Below are positions 5,731 to 26,779 of a stretch of 34,578 bases of DNA, piece after piece. This DNA is from an uncultured Chlorobiaceae bacterium (lineage in GTDB: Bacteria > Bacteroidota > Chlorobiia > Chlorobiales > Chlorobiaceae): the NCBI GenBank assembly GCA_903838025.1, contig CAILXB010000043.1:1-34578 (forward strand), written 5' to 3'. The notes under the pieces were generated by a model, which ran no database searches, was not told the DNA's origin, and saw nothing but the letters and a program-made list of their open reading frames with translations. Position numbers and translations under genes: made by a program. Within the stretch, counting starts at the first letter, position 1, and every line of letters starts with the position of its first letter.

Positions 5731-6245
5731 TATTCGAGTATGAAATATTTTTTGAGAGATTCAAGCTTTTTTTTGCCAATACCCTTGACGTCAAGAAAGT
5801 CCTGGAATTGCATCACTTTTCCCCCTTTTGATTTTCTGAAAGTAATCAGCCGCTCCGCCATGACCGGCCCTACGCCTGGAATTTTCTGTAACTGCTGGCT
5901 GCTCGCCTTGTTGAAAGAGAGGGTGCCATTAAAGACTTTTTTTCCTGATGAGCGTTGCTCCGGTTTTTTTTGAGCGTCAACGTCTTCTCCTTCGGTCTCA
6001 GCAGCCAGCAAAACATCTTCCTTGACGGATGCCTGCTGCACGGTGGCAAGGGAAATAAGGCTGTCGACCTCCGCTTCACGGTATCGGGCGCTTTCTGCTT
6101 TTTTGACAAGAAGATCAACCTCCTCTGATGAACGGAGCGTAACAAGGATGCCGCCCAGCAGTAGAAAGGCCAGAAGAGCCGATACCAGAGTAATTTCTGC
6201 CTTGGTGAGGCTGAGCTTCAGCGCCAGTTTTTCGAGGGGGTTCAT
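5730..6245 (-). CDS. ComEA-like helix-hairpin-helix protein with N-terminal TM segment
   Basis: TM segment ITLVSALLAFLLLGGILVTL; C-terminal FNKASSQQLQKIPGVGPVMAERLITFRKSKGGKVMQFQDFLDVKGIGKKKLESLKKYF tandem HhH. Confidence 0.85.
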   Translation of the reverse strand: MNPLEKLALKLSLTKAEITLVSALLAFLLLGGILVTLRSSEEVDLLVKKAESARYREAEVDSLISLATVQQASVKEDVLLAAETEGEDVDAQKKPEQRSSGKKVFNGTLSFNKASSQQLQKIPGVGPVMAERLITFRKSKGGKVMQFQDFLDVKGIGKKKLESLKKYFILE

Positions 6246-7393
6246 AAAAAGATGCGTTTTACCCTTGAAGAGACCGAACAGAGTATTTCATAGCTGATGG
6301 TGCCAGTCAGGTCGGCCAGGTACTCCGCCCCGACGCCCTCCCAACCAAAAAGAACCGCTTTGTCGCCAATGTTGACCTGGTGCGCAGTGCCGAGGTTAAC
6401 CATGATCTGATCCATGGTGACGGTGCCGACCTGCGGGTAAGCGTTGCCGTTAATCATGACGGTGGCTCGGCCTGAGAGCGCTCTTGCATAACCATCGGCG
6501 TAGCCTGCGGCTATGGTGGCGATGGTGCACGTTTCGGGCGCAGTCCAGGTTCGGTTATAGCTGATGGTGGTTCCTGCAGGGACGGTTTTGATAAAAATCA
6601 CTTTTGCCTCAACTTGCATGACCGGTTTGACGTCGAGGCGGCAAGGCGTGTTTTTTGCCGGATGGTACCCGTAGAGCAGAATGCCGGGGCGCACCATGTC
6701 GAGCCAGGAGTGGGGTGACGTCATAATGGCGCCACTGTTGGCCGCATGTTTGCACACGGTTCTGGATGAGGCATGTTCATATTCAGCAGTGAGCGTTGTG
6801 AAGGCATTGAGCTGCTCCTGGGTGAATCCTTCAGCGGTCGCGCTGTCGGCAAAGTGGGTGTAGATTCCTCTCAGCTCAAGGTGAGGGGAACGGTCGATTT
6901 GCCGCAAAAGTTCCATGGCAACTGACGGGTTGACGCCGAGACGCCCCATGCCGGTATCGACCTTGACCTGTACGGAAAGCGTTGTGTTCTCTGCGGCGGC
7001 AATTTCTTCTGCCGCACGGAGCGTCAGGCTGTCGCAGAGGGTCATTTCAATGCCGTGGTGCAGAAAAAAAGGAATTTGAGAGGGAAGCGGCGAAGAGAAT
7101 GCGAGAATGGAGGCCCGCTTTTTCAGCGCACCGCACTTTTTCAGTTCAATGGCTTCATGGATGTTGGCCACGCCGAAATCACTGATGCCTGATTTTTCAA
7201 GCGTTTCAGCAACCCTGTGGACGTTGTGGCCGTAAGCATTGGCTTTGACAATACCCATAATTCGCTTGCCCTCACCAACTCTCCGCGCAATTATGCGTGC
7301 GTTCCAGGCAAGGTTTTCGAGCGAGACCAGCGCCTCTGTCATGTTTTCAGGTAGAATTTCTCCTGCTGCAAACTCCCTGTTGTTTTCATCCAT
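6242..7393 (-). CDS. alr: Alanine racemase
   Basis: GIVKANAYGHNVHRVAETLEKSG PLP-lysine motif, KVDTGMGRLGV, GYADGYARALSGRATVMINGNAYPQVGTVTMDQIMVNLG. Confidence 0.96.
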   Translation of the reverse strand: MDENNREFAAGEILPENMTEALVSLENLAWNARIIARRVGEGKRIMGIVKANAYGHNVHRVAETLEKSGISDFGVANIHEAIELKKCGALKKRASILAFSSPLPSQIPFFLHHGIEMTLCDSLTLRAAEEIAAAENTTLSVQVKVDTGMGRLGVNPSVAMELLRQIDRSPHLELRGIYTHFADSATAEGFTQEQLNAFTTLTAEYEHASSRTVCKHAANSGAIMTSPHSWLDMVRPGILLYGYHPAKNTPCRLDVKPVMQVEAKVIFIKTVPAGTTISYNRTWTAPETCTIATIAAGYADGYARALSGRATVMINGNAYPQVGTVTMDQIMVNLGTAHQVNIGDKAVLFGWEGVGAEYLADLTGTISYEILCSVSSRVKRIFL

Positions 7394-7600: not shown

Positions 7601-8974
7601 ATGTCGAACCACGATATTTTCGGGCTTGCTGCAGAAACGCCTATGGTACCTGTTCAACAGATGGCCCGTCAGATAAGGCCCAAGGTCATGGCCAAACTTG
7701 AGTATATGAATCCTGCGTGGTCGCATTACTACCGAGTGGCTTGTGCCATTGTAAAGGATGCTGAAGAGCGCAAGCTGATTCAACGGGGAATGACCCTTGT
7801 CGACTGGACTTTTGGCGACAGCGGAATTGCCCTTGCCATGGCCGGTGTGAGCCGTGGCTACAAGCTTTTGCTGGCCGCACCCGATAAAATATCGCGAGAG
7901 AAGCAGGATATGCTTCGTGCTCTCGGTGCAGAACTGGTGATTACCCCTTCGGACGCTTTGCCCGGAGAACCGCGCAGTTGCATGAATGTGGCTGAAAGCC
8001 TGGTGCGGAGTATCCCCAACGCCTTTTATGCTGGTATGTACGCCAACCCCCTCAGTTTCAAGGTTCACAGCGAATCGACGGGCAGTGAAATTTTTCGCCA
8101 GACGGAGGGGAGGGTTACCCACGTTTTTGTGCCGATGATTTCTGGTGCCATGGTTTTCGGGATTGCTACTTTTTTGAAAGCAAAAAATCCTGCCATTAAG
8201 ATTATCGGTGTTGAGTCGCAGGACTCAATCTATGCAGGGCTTTTCAGAAATGGAATGCCTGGCGCGCCCGTTTTTTCAGAGCTTGAAGAGATTGGTTCCC
8301 GGCAGCCCTCCGCCTTCTGGGAGCCCTCGCTGCTTGATGATGTGGTGCAGGTCAGTGATTATGATGCTTTTAACTGCGGCAGAGAGCTGTTGCGGATGGA
8401 AGCGCTGTTTGCCGGTGGAGCTTCAGGCGCGGCGATGGCTGCGGCGCTTCGTGCCGGTGTTGCATATCGTGAAGATGATTGTGTCGTCGTGGTTATGAAC
8501 GATTTTGGTGGTTATTATCTGAGCAAAATGTTCCATGACGAGTGGATGCGCAAGCGCGGCTTTTACCGCAAAGCAAAGTCAGCCCCTGAGCAAATCACGG
8601 CCGAAGATATTTTGCAGTTGAAGGCACGCCGGGATCTGATTTTTGCCTTGCCCGAAAATACCCTTGCAGAAGTGTTTCAGATGATGAAGCAGAACGATGT
8701 TTCACAATTGCCGATTGTCTCCTATAATGCTCCGATTGGCAGTATCAGCGAAAACAAGATTCTCTCCATTCTCATTGAAAACGATGATGCGATGAATGCA
8801 AAGGTCGTCGGATTTATGGAGCCTCCATTTCCGGTCTGCCGGCTCGATGCAACAATTTCCGAATTATCCGATAAACTGCAGCAAAGTGCATCGGGAGTGC
8901 TGGTAAGCCGCTCGGACGGGCGCCTTCAATTGCTCACAAAGTCAGATCTTATTGATGCCTTGACCCATAAGTGA
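7601..8974 (+). CDS. Cystathionine beta-synthase/cysteine synthase-fold protein with C-terminal CBS domain pair; PLP motifs degenerate (probable pseudoenzyme)
   Basis: CBS-like framework (LRALGAELVITPSDA, FAGGASGAAMAAALRAG, HDEWMRKRGF) followed by CBS domains (LPENTLAEVFQMMKQNDVSQLPIVSYNAPIGSISENKIL...). The ATG at 7601 is preferred over the upstream ORF start at 7532. Confidence 0.85.
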   Translation: MSNHDIFGLAAETPMVPVQQMARQIRPKVMAKLEYMNPAWSHYYRVACAIVKDAEERKLIQRGMTLVDWTFGDSGIALAMAGVSRGYKLLLAAPDKISREKQDMLRALGAELVITPSDALPGEPRSCMNVAESLVRSIPNAFYAGMYANPLSFKVHSESTGSEIFRQTEGRVTHVFVPMISGAMVFGIATFLKAKNPAIKIIGVESQDSIYAGLFRNGMPGAPVFSELEEIGSRQPSAFWEPSLLDDVVQVSDYDAFNCGRELLRMEALFAGGASGAAMAAALRAGVAYREDDCVVVVMNDFGGYYLSKMFHDEWMRKRGFYRKAKSAPEQITAEDILQLKARRDLIFALPENTLAEVFQMMKQNDVSQLPIVSYNAPIGSISENKILSILIENDDAMNAKVVGFMEPPFPVCRLDATISELSDKLQQSASGVLVSRSDGRLQLLTKSDLIDALTHK

Positions 8975-9076: not shown

Positions 9077-9724
9077 ATGAAGCCCGCAAAAAGAGAGTGG
9101 AGCGCAGAGAGAGATACGGAAATCCAGACGACTTTTGGTCGGGTTAATAACCAGCACTATGATATGAAGGTAGAGTCCAGAAAAAGACAGTTCATTTTGG
9201 AGGGCAAAATCAAGCCTTGCTTCTGTGAAGGATGTGGCCAGATTACAGAGAAGGTTTTTGTCGGCGAATGGATGCCGAGCGACAAGCCCAGAGAGGAGGA
9301 TCTTTTAACGACGGTTGCGGCCAAAAAGCCCAAAGGGAGTAAAAACGGCACGGGAGAATTGCCGCCTGCCGCCGAAAATCAGTATTGGGTTCGCTGTTCT
9401 GACTGCAACCAGGTTTACCTGCTCAAGGAGTGGCAGATACAGATTGATCGGGAAATCAGTCCCGATGAGTTGAAAGCCGAAGAGTGTCAGATTTATTCTC
9501 CGCATGGTATTTATGCCAAGGGTGACGCCCTCTATCACCAGGCGCTTGGTGAGGTTGGCGTGGTCAGAGAAAAACAGGCAACAGGAAGTGGTGCTTTTGT
9601 TATTATTGTGGAATTTTGCAAAAGTGGCAAAAAACAGCTTCTCGAAAATGTACAAATGAACCCCGCAAACGGGAAAAATACAGAGAGTGTTACGGATCTT
9701 ATTAAATTGAAACTTAGACGTTGA
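9077..9724 (+). CDS. Hypothetical protein with putative zinc ribbon
   Basis: 215 aa ORF with CFCEGCGQ and CSDCNQVY CxxC pairs; upstream of rpsU. Confidence 0.65.
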   Translation: MKPAKREWSAERDTEIQTTFGRVNNQHYDMKVESRKRQFILEGKIKPCFCEGCGQITEKVFVGEWMPSDKPREEDLLTTVAAKKPKGSKNGTGELPPAAENQYWVRCSDCNQVYLLKEWQIQIDREISPDELKAEECQIYSPHGIYAKGDALYHQALGEVGVVREKQATGSGAFVIIVEFCKSGKKQLLENVQMNPANGKNTESVTDLIKLKLRR

Positions 9725-10032: not shown

Positions 10033-11334
10033 ATGAGAGTGTTCAAAGGTGAAGTTACAGCGTTACCGCCCGACAAGTCGATCTCCCACCGAGCGGCACT
10101 TATTGGCGCATTGTCGGAAGGGACAACAGAGATTACCAACTTTTCCGCCGGATTTGATAATCAGTCAACCCTTGGTGTCCTGAAAAGTGCCGGAATCACC
10201 CTTCGTCAGGAAGAGGTGGATGGAGCCTACGGCCGCCGCATCCGAAAAGTGGTCATTGAGTCAAGGGGACTCTGGAGTTTTCAGCCCCCTTCCGATCCCT
10301 TGATGTGCAATAATTCGGGTAGCACCATGCGCATGTTTGCCGGTATTTTGGCCGCCCAGCCCTTTGCCAGTGAGTTAATTGGCGACAGTTCGCTGATGAA
10401 GCGACCGATGAAGAGAGTTGCCGACCCCTTGCGCCTGATGGGCGTTGATGTGCAACTGTCGCCATCAGGCACCGCGCCGATGCACATTAAAGGAACCAGA
10501 GAGCTGAAGCCGATCAACTACCGCTTGCCGGTTCCTTCAGCGCAGGTGAAGTCGCTCGTGGCCTTTGCCGCCCTCCATGCCGACGGCGAATCGAGAATTA
10601 TTGAGCCGCTGCTTTCTCGTGACCATACGGAAGTGATGCTTGGTCTCAAGAGTAGTGAGTGCGATGGAGAGCGGGTTATTGTGATACCGGGCCGCAAAGC
10701 TCTTGCCGCAAAGCCCTTTTTTATTCCTGCCGACCCGTCAGCCGCCTGTTTTATTCTTGCGCTTGGCCTGCTTGCCCGTGGCTCAGAAATTATCATCAGG
10801 GATGTCTGCCTCAACCCGACACGGGTAGCATTTCTCGCTCTTTTAACAGAAGCCGGGGCCGGTTTGACCATTGAAAACCAGCGGGTGATTGGTGGCGAAA
10901 CCATCGGCGATATTTTGGTAGAGAACCACACTGGGCTTGAACCTCTTGTGATCCGCGATCCGCAGCTTGTCTCCTTTCTTATTGATGAAATCCCGATGCT
11001 TGCCGTTCTTTCAGCCTTTGCCTCCGGTCAGTTTGAACTGCACAACGCCGCCGAGTTGCGAACCAAAGAGAGCGACCGTATTGATGCCCTTGTGGTCAAT
11101 CTTCAGCGTCTCGGTTTTGATTGCGAGCAGTACCCCGATGGTTTCATTGTCAAAGGGCGCAACATAACCCCGTCAGGAACGGTGGTGATTGAGAGTTTTG
11201 ATGATCACCGAATTGCCATGAGCTTCGCCATTGCCAGCAAGGCGACAGGGTGCCCTATTGATATTTCCGACGTTGACGTTGTCGGCGTCTCGTTCCCGAA
11301 CTTTTTTGAACTGATTGAAAGTCTCGAAGTTTGA
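10033..11334 (+). CDS. aroA: 3-phosphoshikimate 1-carboxyvinyltransferase (EPSP synthase)
   Basis: [72 protein letters not shown]. Confidence 0.97.
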
Positions 11335-19427: not shown

Positions 19428-20702
19428 TCAGTGTACCGAGCATGATATACAGGGGTCGTAGGAGCGCACCAGCATTTCGCAGAGCTTTGCGGTTTCCCTG
19501 TCATCTTTTCCCTCTTCAAGCGCCTGCCGGGCAAGGGCCCGCAGGTCGCTGTGGATGTTCCCGTTATTCTGTGTGGTAGGAATGACGCAGTCCGCTTTTG
19601 TCACCTTTCCTGCAGCATCAGTTTCCATAGAGTGGTAGAGTATTCCCCGTGGAGCTTCAACTGCTCCGGTGGCGGCGCCTGCTTTGGGTGAGTACGGGGT
19701 TTTTATTTCCCGGAGATCCATGTTGAGCAGTGAGTTGACAAGCTCTTCCGCCTCTTCAAGGATGTGGATGCATTCGACGAGCTGGGCGATGTTGTTCATG
19801 AAGGGGTTGTGGCAGATCGGCCTCAGCCCGAGCTGTTCGGCTGCCTTTTGTGCGTTTGGATGCAGCAGGTCGTGGTTGTTGTTGAATCGGGCGAGCGCTC
19901 CGGATACAGAGGAGTTGCGGCTCAGGCGGGTAAATTTTGAGGTCGAAAATTCACGGGTGTACTCGTTGGTCATGAGGAGATAGTCATTCTCCTCCCGGTC
20001 AATACCATCGGTTGAAACCAGGCGCCCGCCGATTGAGGGGTAGCTTGCGGCGTTGCGTAGCGAGATAAACTCGGTTTCGCGACTGAAATTGGGCATGACG
20101 AGGGAGCTGAAAAAAGAGCAGGCGATTTCAAGCGATGGTTTTCGCTCCACAATCATGGTGCGCAGTTGCTGGAGCCTTTGCTTGTCGGGGGCTTTGCTGA
20201 TTCCTCCAACTACAAGGCTGACCGGATGGGTGCAGCGCCCGGCGGTGATGCTGCTGATTTCGTTGCCAAGCTCTTTGAGTTGCAACCCCGCTCTGACCAG
20301 ATCCGGGTGGGATTGCATGAGCGGTAAAACGCTGGAAGTGCCTGCAAAATCGGGAGCAATGAGAAAAAAGAGGTGCAGGGCATGGCTTTGAAGGGTTTCG
20401 CCCTGCATAGCCAGCAACCTTGTTTGTTTTGCGGCCAGCGGTGGTGTAATGTTCATGGCTCGTTCAAGCGCCCTGATGCTTGCAAGGGCGTGGCTGATGG
20501 AGCAGATGCCGCAAATTCGCGAGGTGAGAAAAGGTACCCTTTCGGCGCTCATTCCCTTGAGCATGACCTCAAAAAAGCGGGGGGTTTCAACAACCGCCCA
20601 TTGGGACTCTACAAGTTGGCCCTCCCTGACGGTAATGTGGATGTTGGCGTGTCCTTCCACTCGTGAAAGGTGACGGATATCAATGGCATAGTCACGCTTC
20701 AT
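19428..20702 (-). CDS. hydA: NiFe hydrogenase large (alpha) subunit, group 3b-like
   Basis: [35 protein letters not shown] (N-terminal CxxC); [11 protein letters not shown] (C-terminal CxxCxxH). Confidence 0.93.
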
Positions 20703-21468
20703 GGCTCGGGAATGGTTCAAAGGCGTTATAACAGGCCAGTTTTTCATGCAGGTCGTCGAGGCTGAGCCCTCGCTCTTTAACCAGTTCAAAAAAGGCCGCC
20801 ATGTTGATCTCTTCTGCCGGGCCTCGGCAGCCGAGGCAGGGCGTGTTTCCGCTGGTGCAGATGGCATTGCATCCGGCACGGGTGAGGGGGCCGAGGCAGA
20901 TTTCGCCAAGTTCAAAGAGGCAGGTGGTGAGTTGTGCCTTGCATTCAACGCAGACCGGGTATTTCGGGAGTGTCACCCGTGAGCCGGTGACAAGACTCAC
21001 CATGACGCGCTCTACCTCTCCCTTGTCAACCGGGCATCCGGGAATGGAGAGGTCAACCTTCACCAGATCGCTGATTTTGCGCACCGGCAGGGTTTCGATT
21101 GCCATGCCGGGATAGACCTCATCAATTAAATTTTGTATGGAATGGTTGTTTTTGAGATTGTTGACCCCGCCAAAACAGGCGCAGGTGCCAAAGGCTACAA
21201 GGATTTTTGCCTGCTTCCGTATTTTAAGAAGTCGCTCCACCTCATCCGGACGGCTGATGCTTCCCTCAATAAGCGCAATATCGTAATCGTCGTGCCGCTC
21301 TGAAGAGATCTCTCTGAAATTGCGTACATCAAGCAGCCCGAGAAAGTCGGGAAGTGACGACTCGCGGTTAGTTAGTTGCAATTGGCACCCTTCGCAGCAG
21401 GTGAAATCGAACGAGGCGATTTTCAGCCGTTCAAAGGGAACTCCCTGTTGCGTTATCTTTTCTCCCAT
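20692..21468 (-). CDS. hydD: NiFe hydrogenase small (delta) subunit
   Basis: [56 protein letters not shown]. Confidence 0.93.
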
Positions 21469-21469
21469 G

Positions 21470-22387
21470 CTAAATGGCCTCCTTGAGATTCATGACACTC
21501 CAGTAATCGAAGACCGGGCCGTCAATACAGGTGAAGGTTGAACCAACCATGCAGCGGCAGCATTTGCCCATGCCGCAGTGCATCCGCCGCTCCAGTGAAA
21601 CGAACATGCGGTTCATTGGTATGCCGAGCCGGTCGAGCCAACTGCAGACAATCTTGAACATCACCGGCGGGCCGCAGACGATGGCGTAGGTGGTTGCGGT
21701 ATCAATGGAGATATCGTTGAAGAGATCGGTGATCAGCCCTTTTTTTCCTGGCCACTGCGGGTCGGCACGCTCCACAATGGTGTGCAGTTGAATATGGTTG
21801 ATCATCTTCCATTCGTCGAACTGCCAGGTAAAGAGGAGTTGCGAGGGCTCTTTTGCGCCATAGAGCAGATCGACATTCAAAAAGCGGTTACGATGTTCGT
21901 TGATCCAGGAGAGAGGAGCACGGAGCGGGGCAATGCCGAGCCCTCCGGCAATCAGAAGGATGTTGTGCCCGGCCATCTCATCCATGGGAAAGGAGGATCC
22001 GAAGGGGCCTCTTATGGCCACACGGGCTCCCTCTGTAATGGTGAAAAGTGCGGAGGTGACATGGCCAACTTTTCGGATACAGAGCTCCAGAAACTCATGG
22101 TTGCTGCTGGAGCCTGAAATTGAAATAGGCACGTCACCGTAGCCGGGAAGTTCCAGCATGAGAAACTGACCGGGTTTGAACCGGAAGAGCGAGCGCTCCA
22201 CAGAGTCAATAATATGGAGCTGAAAAAGCCTCTCCTGCTCCGTCAGGCGGACAATGTTGGTGACTACGCATTTGTACCCGAAATCGGTTTTTATGATGTC
22301 TGAACGGCGGTTGAAATCAGGCACCGATGAGGCAAAATCCTCGCGGTTTATATCTTGCGGGGAGATGACGAAACGCAAATCATGCAT
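21470..22387 (-). CDS. hydG: Sulfhydrogenase FAD/NAD(P)-binding gamma subunit
   Basis: [69 protein letters not shown] 2Fe-2S motif. Confidence 0.92.
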
Positions 22388-23427
22388 GATTCCTTCTCCA
22401 TTCTGAGATCGTTGATGACATCTTTCGGGTTAATCCCTGCAAGGCATGCCCTTCCGCACCGGTTGCATCCTACGCAAATCTGCTGGCTGGCGTTTTCGGC
22501 AAATCCCCGGTGCTGATGATAATAGCGATACTTCAGCCGATCGCCATTTTTTGGACGGAAATTATGCCCCCCGGCCACAACGGCAAAATCGACAAGGTTG
22601 CAGGAGTAGAGCTTTTTTTCGCGTGAAGCTCCCTTCAGGTTGGTAGTAAACGACTCCGTGAGCGCATAGCAGTAGCAGGAGGGGCAGACCATGGCGCAGG
22701 TGCCGCAGTTGAGGCATTTGTTGCCCCATTTTTCCCAGACAGGGGAGTCGAACTCAATGTCGAGAATAGTCGGCAGGGCGGTAACGTCAATGTCGGTTTG
22801 AAAACCGTTCTGGATAACTTTGCGCCGTTCAACGAGCATGCAGTTGTCGTCATCGTTCGGGTCGCGGGTTTCGAACTCACGGAGAAAGCTGAACGCTTTC
22901 GACGAGTTGATTGAGAGGTAGTAGTGGTCGCCGATATCTGAGCAGAAGAGGTTGAAGCCGGTTGTGACGGTGTGGTGGTTCATTGATTTGCAGAAACAGT
23001 CGGCCAGAGGCAGATGATCCATGCCGATGACAAAGCTGTTTTTGCGTCGGGCCAGATAGCCGGGAGAGGGAAAATGGCCATTGAGCAGCACATCGTCCAG
23101 AATGTTCAGGGCGCTGATATCGCACGCCCGCAGTCCGATCAGCACCACCGGATTTGCTTCGTAGCTTATCTGCTGTTCCCAGTCATTGCCGTGAAAGTGA
23201 AAGTGTGATAACTCTTCCTGAAAGGGAAGAAAAAAATGTTTGGCCGACGATGCTGTGGCGCTGTAGTCGAAGGCGATTTCATCAACGGAGTGAACAGGCT
23301 GGAACTGATAGATCGCGTCGCCCCGGAGGTCGGTAGCAACTTGCCTTGGCCCGAAAGAGCGGTTACTTTGCACGAGGGCGTCAATAAACCCCGCGAACTC
23401 CTTTTTGGAAATGACTTTGTAGATCAT
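22348..23427 (-). CDS. hydB: Sulfhydrogenase 4Fe-4S beta subunit
   Basis: [17 protein letters not shown] and [21 protein letters not shown] ferredoxin motifs. Confidence 0.9.
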
Positions 23428-25172: not shown

Positions 25173-25781
25173 GTGAAAAAGAAATTATTGTTGTTGCCGT
25201 TGTTGTTTGCTGGTATGTGTGCCACGCCAGCGTTTGCCGCGCCTTACCTGAGTCTGTCGGGTGGTGTTGGATTCCCTAATGACGCCAAGCTATCCAATAC
25301 GAATGGTACCGCGAATACCAGCAGTCCGTTTGTATACAAAACGGGAATTCCGTTTGGTGGAGCAGTGGGTTATGCTTCAGACTGTTACCGTATTGAAGCA
25401 GCCGTTACTCTTCAGACCAACAAGTCGAAGAGTATTGGTGGAACAGCGTTTGTTGATGACACTACTGATATTAAAACAGTATCGTACATGGCCAATGGCT
25501 ATTATGATATCTGCATGGACGATTCCAACCTGTCACCATATTTGACGGCGGGTATTGGTCTTGCTTCAGTGAAAATCAGGATGGTTGCAGTGGATCTCGC
25601 AGATCAAAGCAAGTTCGCATGGCAGGTTGGTGCCGGTCTTGGCGTGAAGGTTTCCGATCAGGTCGTTGTTGATTTGGGCTACCGTTATTTTAAAACAGCA
25701 GATGTCACGAGCAAGGCGGGTGATTGGAAGGCAACTGTGGGTAGCAGCAACATTCTGGCTGGTGTCAGATACAACTTCTAA
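25173..25781 (+). CDS. Outer-membrane beta-barrel protein, copy 1 (GTG start)
   Basis: Signal peptide KKKLLLLPLLFAGMCATPAFA; glycine-rich beta-barrel strands; C-terminal NILAGVRYNF with terminal Phe. Confidence 0.85.
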   Translation: MKKKLLLLPLLFAGMCATPAFAAPYLSLSGGVGFPNDAKLSNTNGTANTSSPFVYKTGIPFGGAVGYASDCYRIEAAVTLQTNKSKSIGGTAFVDDTTDIKTVSYMANGYYDICMDDSNLSPYLTAGIGLASVKIRMVAVDLADQSKFAWQVGAGLGVKVSDQVVVDLGYRYFKTADVTSKAGDWKATVGSSNILAGVRYNF

Positions 25782-26170: not shown

Positions 26171-26779
26171 ATGAAAAAGAGATTATTGTTGCCGTTGTTG
26201 TTCGCTGGAATGTGGGCCACACCAGCGTTTGCCGGAACTTATGTCAGTATTTCGGGCGGTGCGGGGCTGCACAATGATTCCAAGTTGACCAGTATTGCAA
26301 CTGGTGCTGCTGTTGCAAGAAGTCCTATTGCATACAAAACGGGGATTCCTGTTGTTGGCGCTCTTGGTTATTCGTCGGATAGTTGGCGTGTTGAGGCGGC
26401 CCTTGGCTACCAGCTTAACACAATTAATACCTTTGGTAATGGAGCCGCTGTCGCTGCCGACAGTCATACTTCAGTGCTTTCGGTTATGGCCAACGGGTAT
26501 TATGATGTTAACATGGATGATTCCAGCCTCTCCCCATATTTGACGGCAGGTCTTGGTGTTGCTTCAGTGACATTAAAGGAAGCGGGATTTACCAACATCG
26601 GTAGAAGCGAGTTTGCGTGGCAGGTTGGTGCCGGTCTTGGCATCAAGGCGTCAGATCAGGTTATCGTTGATCTTGGCTACCGTTATTTCAGAGCAACAGA
26701 CGCCAATAACAAGGCGGGTACTGAAAAGGGGACTTTTGCCACCAGCAACATTCTGGCTGGTATCAGGTACAACTTCTAA
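26171..26779 (+). CDS. Outer-membrane beta-barrel protein, copy 2
   Basis: Tandem paralog of 25173-25781, same length (202 aa): MKKRLLLPLLFAGMWATPAFA...FAWQVGAGLGIKASDQVIVDLGYRYF...NILAGIRYNF. Confidence 0.87.
   Translation: MKKRLLLPLLFAGMWATPAFAGTYVSISGGAGLHNDSKLTSIATGAAVARSPIAYKTGIPVVGALGYSSDSWRVEAALGYQLNTINTFGNGAAVAADSHTSVLSVMANGYYDVNMDDSSLSPYLTAGLGVASVTLKEAGFTNIGRSEFAWQVGAGLGIKASDQVIVDLGYRYFRATDANNKAGTEKGTFATSNILAGIRYNF

Follow-up and report, generated by a model that had tools for sequence, protein, structure and literature searches.

The gene at 7601-8974 on the forward strand of the window, the whole 34,578-nt contig CAILXB010000043.1 (GCA_903838025.1) of an uncultured Chlorobiaceae bacterium, encodes a protein with the domain organization of cystathionine beta-synthase (CBS) in which the PLP-anchoring lysine and most of the other PLP contacts have been replaced. 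Our preferred explanation, to which we assign a probability of roughly 0.6, is that the PLP chemistry of a CBS-type enzyme, passed on by vertical descent, disappeared on the Chlorobiaceae stem, and that the protein was kept as a regulatory pseudoenzyme. As far as could be checked, pseudoenzymes gain a new form with this PLP-less protein, which bears a CBS-domain pair and is fixed throughout a bacterial family; a literature search recovered no paper on the Chlorobiaceae PLP-less protein.

Domain architecture and structural relatives

The gene is complete: its frame is open from 7601 to 8974, as the earlier note had read it, and specifies 457 aa, with an ATG start and a length common to its homologs. 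The product begins with a fold-type II core of the PALP superfamily (residues 5-320; 7613..8560), recognized by the Pfam PALP profile PF00291 with 192.8 bits against a cut-off of 35, and ends with a CBS-domain pair or Bateman module (residues 331-457; 8591..8971), the best-conserved part of the protein. The first repeat of this pair matches the CBS-domain profile PF00571 with 48.7 bits against a cut-off of 24, and the second was aligned to Rv1077, the Mycobacterium tuberculosis CBS. This succession of a fold-type II core and a CBS-domain pair is the domain order of cystathionine beta-synthase, and Rv1077 is the closest solved protein by sequence match. It is also the best PDB match (7xnz) of an AlphaFold2 model built from the family alignment, which has a mean pLDDT of 75.5 with high values in the core and low values in parts of the CBS pair; the modelled core fits isolated CBS and cysteine-synthase cores at ~3 A with TM scores by target of 0.87-0.90, while the placement of the CBS pair relative to the core is unreliable in this model. 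Rv1077 (MtbCbs), whose CBS activity is raised by SAM, has the domain order, fold and CBS-pair contact positions in common with the window protein; however, it possesses Lys44, the PLP loops and PLP absorbance (PMC9232105), whereas the window protein is devoid of the lysine and most PLP contacts.

Replacement of the cofactor site

Residues were counted in 55 aligned Chlorobiaceae copies and compared with 19 PLP-keeping relatives, using the PLP contact list of Rv1077 (PMC9232105) and human numbering derived from alignments; all positions given below are on the forward strand of the window unless stated otherwise. In place of NPGGS(V/I)KDR the core reads NPAWSHYYR (residues 37-45; 7709..7735), with Tyr43 (7727-7729) at the position of the Schiff-base lysine (human K119, M. 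tuberculosis K44). The substrate/PLP loop TSGNTG has become TFGDSG (residues 70-75; 7808..7825), and the phosphate loop GTGGT has become ISGAM (residues 180-184; 8138..8152). At three further positions, whose roles are those generally assigned in CBS structures, Met146 (8036..8038) stands for the substrate-binding glutamine (human Q222), Glu230 (8288..8290) for human G305, and Phe302 for the serine at the PLP ring-nitrogen contact (human S349), in a segment that reads NDFGG and is followed by Tyr305 where relatives have arginine (8504..8515). The contact list (PMC9232105) adds Ala274 (8420..8422), which replaces the PLP-contacting serine of the GGS loop (M. tuberculosis S269). The tyrosine codon at the lysine position, TFGDSG, the altered phosphate loop and NDFGG had all been pointed out in the earlier note, and each reads as described there; aligned with solved CBS structures, these sites all fall into place free of gaps. 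Misalignment of the lysine site is ruled out, as the alignment is gapless against many PLP enzymes.

These replacements are family-wide and mostly identical across species. The Schiff-base lysine is tyrosine in 53/55 copies and the GGS-loop serine is alanine in as many; GTGGT is never present in the 55 copies, in which one phosphate-loop threonine is serine throughout (Ser181; 55/55), a glycine is alanine in 51/55 and a threonine is methionine in 51/55. The substrate glutamine, found in 19/19 PLP-keeping relatives, is Met or Leu in 55/55 copies, and the G305 position, glycine in 19/19 relatives, is Glu or Asp in 55/55. Phe302 is likewise present in 55/55 and Tyr305 in 53/55, and Ser74 and Asp68 are each found in all 55. 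The serine beside the loop asparagine is substituted throughout the family (Phe/Tyr in 50, Cys in 4 and Val in 1 of the 55). Asp73 is a peculiarity of the window genome: the loop asparagine itself is retained in 44/55 copies, as are Ser41 in 55/55 and one phosphate-loop glycine in 51/55. Against the TIGR01137 equivalog profile (curated cut-off 510.25) the window protein scores 315 bits and a Chlorobaculum copy 329, although the PLP-keeping orthologs of sister families, at 459-470 bits, also fall under this cut-off. Judging from these residues, CBS activity of the Chlorobiaceae protein is very unlikely, and the label 'cystathionine beta-synthase' carried by its genes is probably wrong.

Distribution in the Chlorobiaceae

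A scan of contigs recovered 56 loci, all from Chlorobiaceae (Chlorobium, Pelodictyon, Chlorobaculum and metagenome bins). The Schiff-base site could be read at 105 loci with more than 60% identity, again all Chlorobiaceae and representing fewer species, as some are one genome reached via two collections: it is Tyr in 102, Asp in two, Ser in one and Lys in none, and an error confined to one genome is thus ruled out. A lysine at this site and truncated homologs were among the observations that the earlier note had named as speaking against its reading; the only partial copies found lie at contig ends. In an order-wide search the gene was present in 79/86 Chlorobiaceae genomes; the remaining seven also lack its neighbour, the gene at 9077, which indicates assembly gaps.

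Chlorobiaceae have CysK-like enzymes, but the only PLP-keeping enzyme with a CBS pair found in this family belongs to genome G212, and hence Chlorobiaceae probably lack the first reverse-transsulfuration step. Inferring this pathway from the 'cystathionine beta-synthase' annotation of Chlorobiaceae genomes is likely to mislead. The G212 enzyme, in a Chlorobiaceae bin (L126:5001-6269), is a second PALP+CBS protein that keeps the lysine and lies directly upstream of a PF01053 gene: the two are likely an acquired or contaminant reverse-transsulfuration pair.

Sister families and ancestry

Orthologs from two sister families of the order (L107-L116), with 42-46% identity, keep NPGGS(I/V)KDR, TAGNTG and GTGGT. 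They preserve the lysine, the phosphate loop, the loop asparagine and the substrate glutamine, whereas the lysine, GTGGT and glutamine are replaced in the Chlorobiaceae protein; from their residues, the sister-family enzymes are apparently alive. A third family of the order, represented by two genomes, has no ortholog. In further families of the phylum, the one phylum covered by the lysine survey, 20 loci keep the lysine, all with at most one Thr/Ser change in the phosphate loop. Retention in the sister families and at these 20 loci places the loss on the Chlorobiaceae stem.

The window gene is followed by a gene of an uncharacterised family (9077..9724) that is linked to it across the order, and by an aroA-like gene (10033..11334); upstream lies an alanine racemase gene (6242..7393, reverse strand), its divergent neighbour in Chlorobiaceae. 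The order CBS gene, 9077-type gene, aroA is common to most sister-family loci, so that these genes represent one locus with vertical inheritance; horizontal replacement is ruled out by this conserved synteny. Chlorobiaceae and sister sequences group together in the tree with support 100, the former as one clade with support 89. In a tree of the core only the sisters do not form one clade and the support of the Chlorobiaceae clade is low (56). Sister orthologs also share Trp69 and an altered PD(S/G) motif with the Chlorobiaceae protein, so that changes in the pocket had started ahead of the loss of the lysine. The sisters score 368-379 bits with the profile of cysteate synthase CapA (cut-off 600), and neither CBS nor CapA is therefore certain as the ancestral activity. 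The locus offers a clean natural experiment, with an enzyme apparently alive in the sister families but dead throughout the Chlorobiaceae.

The product of the gene at 9077 (215 aa) has paired Cys motifs resembling a zinc ribbon and no Pfam match. Although it is conserved order-wide beside the CBS gene and aroA, it is present also in the family without the CBS gene and its occurrence does not follow that of the latter, which argues against an operon partnership. In a sister-family genome a PF01053 enzyme (L116:6978-8168) comes after the PLP-keeping CBS ortholog, as expected of an active transsulfuration pair; PF01053 enzymes occur throughout the order, however, and hence have no discriminating value.

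Shift of constraint to the CBS-domain pair

Within Chlorobiaceae the Nei-Gojobori method gives pairwise dN/dS values of 0.086 (core) and 0.039 (CBS pair), which are rough, as the median dS is near 1. This is purifying selection, in place of the relaxed selection that the earlier note had also held to be contrary evidence, and together with intact frames in 54/54 full-length homologs among the 56 loci it bears out the view that the gene is not in ordinary decay. With catalytic residues lost from a protein under purifying selection, the gene product has the sequence hallmarks of a pseudoenzyme.

In the sister-family orthologs the core is the conserved part and the CBS pair evolves faster; in Chlorobiaceae this is reversed. 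The core/CBS-pair substitution ratio is 2.0-2.3 in Chlorobiaceae and 0.5-0.65 in PLP-keeping groups, the latter being small (10 and 9 sequences). Tree length per leaf in Chlorobiaceae is 0.163 for the core and 0.048 for the CBS pair, that of the CBS pair in the sisters being 0.242. Measured from the window protein, mean identity of the CBS pair is 90.2%, versus 90.8% for RecA. Constraint in Chlorobiaceae now bears on the CBS-domain pair more than on the core, and this reversal, with the sister-family comparison, strongly supports the earlier proposal of a PLP-less scaffold selected for another role. Dead cofactor chemistry combined with a regulatory half conserved at about the level of RecA makes sensing or regulation the protein's most likely present role. 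Such movement of constraint from a catalytic to a regulatory half makes enzyme-to-regulator evolution directly testable, and for green sulfur bacteria it is a pointer to an unrecognised regulator.

Ligand contacts and a proposed mechanism

Adenosyl-contact residues are kept in the CBS pair. Gln369 (8705..8707), corresponding to the human SAM contact Q445, is invariant, and Thr446-Lys-Ser-Asp449 (8936..8947) corresponds to the human contacts T535...D538 (PMC9232105), with Thr in 52/55 and Asp in 55/55 copies; Thr446 is Asn in three Chlorobaculum copies. These residues suggest an adenosyl ligand for the pair, either SAM or adenine nucleotides. Of the roles that the earlier note had put forward, both an adenylate- or SAM-sensing regulator and a partner of an active cysteine synthase are candidates. 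The human SAM contact F443 is represented by Val, and it may be that the ligand is not SAM.

On our preferred reading, the old cofactor pocket would be shut by the bulky Tyr43, Tyr44, Phe/Tyr71, Met146, Met184, Phe302 and Tyr305, and the dead core would serve as a dimerising body and interaction surface. Binding of an adenosyl ligand to the CBS pair could then alter the shape of the dimer, and this change might switch a partner, which may be an enzyme in the metabolism of sulfur amino acids. A more far-reaching version, which we offer tentatively as possible though doubtful, is that a core gene of all Chlorobiaceae encodes a stand-alone adenosyl-ligand sensor derived from a dead CBS enzyme, which controls sulfur amino-acid or SAM metabolism in these sulfide-dwelling bacteria, the PLP pocket having been remodelled into a new site. 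No riboswitch turned up when the window was searched against Rfam (0 hits).

Several known systems offer partial parallels to this proposed role. The TSB-like protein of core eudicots is likewise a fold-type II protein that has lost catalysis and is reported to act allosterically, as an activator, on another protein; it differs in deriving from tryptophan synthase beta, in coexisting with active TSB and in having no CBS pair (PMC12727527). C. elegans CYSL-1 is similarly a cysteine-synthase-like regulator, but one whose binding to EGL-9 is modulated by H2S and which is without a CBS pair (PMC10942545). AcuB parallels our proposal as an energy sensor with a Bateman module that acts on a partner; it is described, however, as an energy-charge sensor of the acu operon, and the abstract mentions no connection with a fold-type II core (PMC13121692).

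Alternative explanations

The strongest alternative, in our estimate an unlikely one, is that the core has acquired a new small-molecule site or a PLP-independent activity, with another ligand in the altered pocket and modulation by the CBS pair. Fixation of the replacements themselves speaks for it (Ser74, Ser181, Phe302, Asp68 and Glu/Asp230 in 55/55; Tyr43 and Tyr305 in 53/55), and the old pocket residues vary less than the remainder of the core (entropy 0.43 vs 0.71, P=0.03), a result that also speaks for our preferred explanation; yet most replacements are bulky, hydrophobic residues, which suggests that the cavity is filled, and overall the core is changing more quickly than the CBS pair. 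We regard as less probable still that an active PLP enzyme, for instance the single CysK-like protein, has the PLP-less protein as its dedicated non-catalytic subunit, in mixed oligomers that relay the CBS-pair signal. The genome does retain a CysK-like enzyme whose site is intact, and precedents exist in plant TSB-like with TSA (PMC12727527) and CYSL-1 with EGL-9 (PMC10942545); but CysK sits at another locus and is general, whereas the PLP-less protein is restricted to Chlorobiaceae.

Continued PLP enzymology, through another lysine or unanchored PLP, is highly improbable: despite the loop asparagine and the phosphate-loop glycine that most copies keep, the near-site motifs of the Chlorobiaceae protein have no lysine, most other PLP contacts are gone, and in the M. 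tuberculosis enzyme K44A abolishes the 412 nm peak (PMC9232105). A pseudogene, frameshift or sequencing/assembly error would account for the missing key residues but is rejected on the family-wide intact frames, dN/dS well below 1 and identical replacements in cultured and metagenomic genomes.

Other features of the window

The cluster at 19428-23427 reads as a four-subunit hydrogenase/sulfhydrogenase, with large, small, flavin reductase and iron-sulfur subunits. Two adjacent, similar 202-aa proteins with the look of outer-membrane beta-barrels are encoded at 25173-25781 and 26171-26779, and are likely the product of a tandem duplication.
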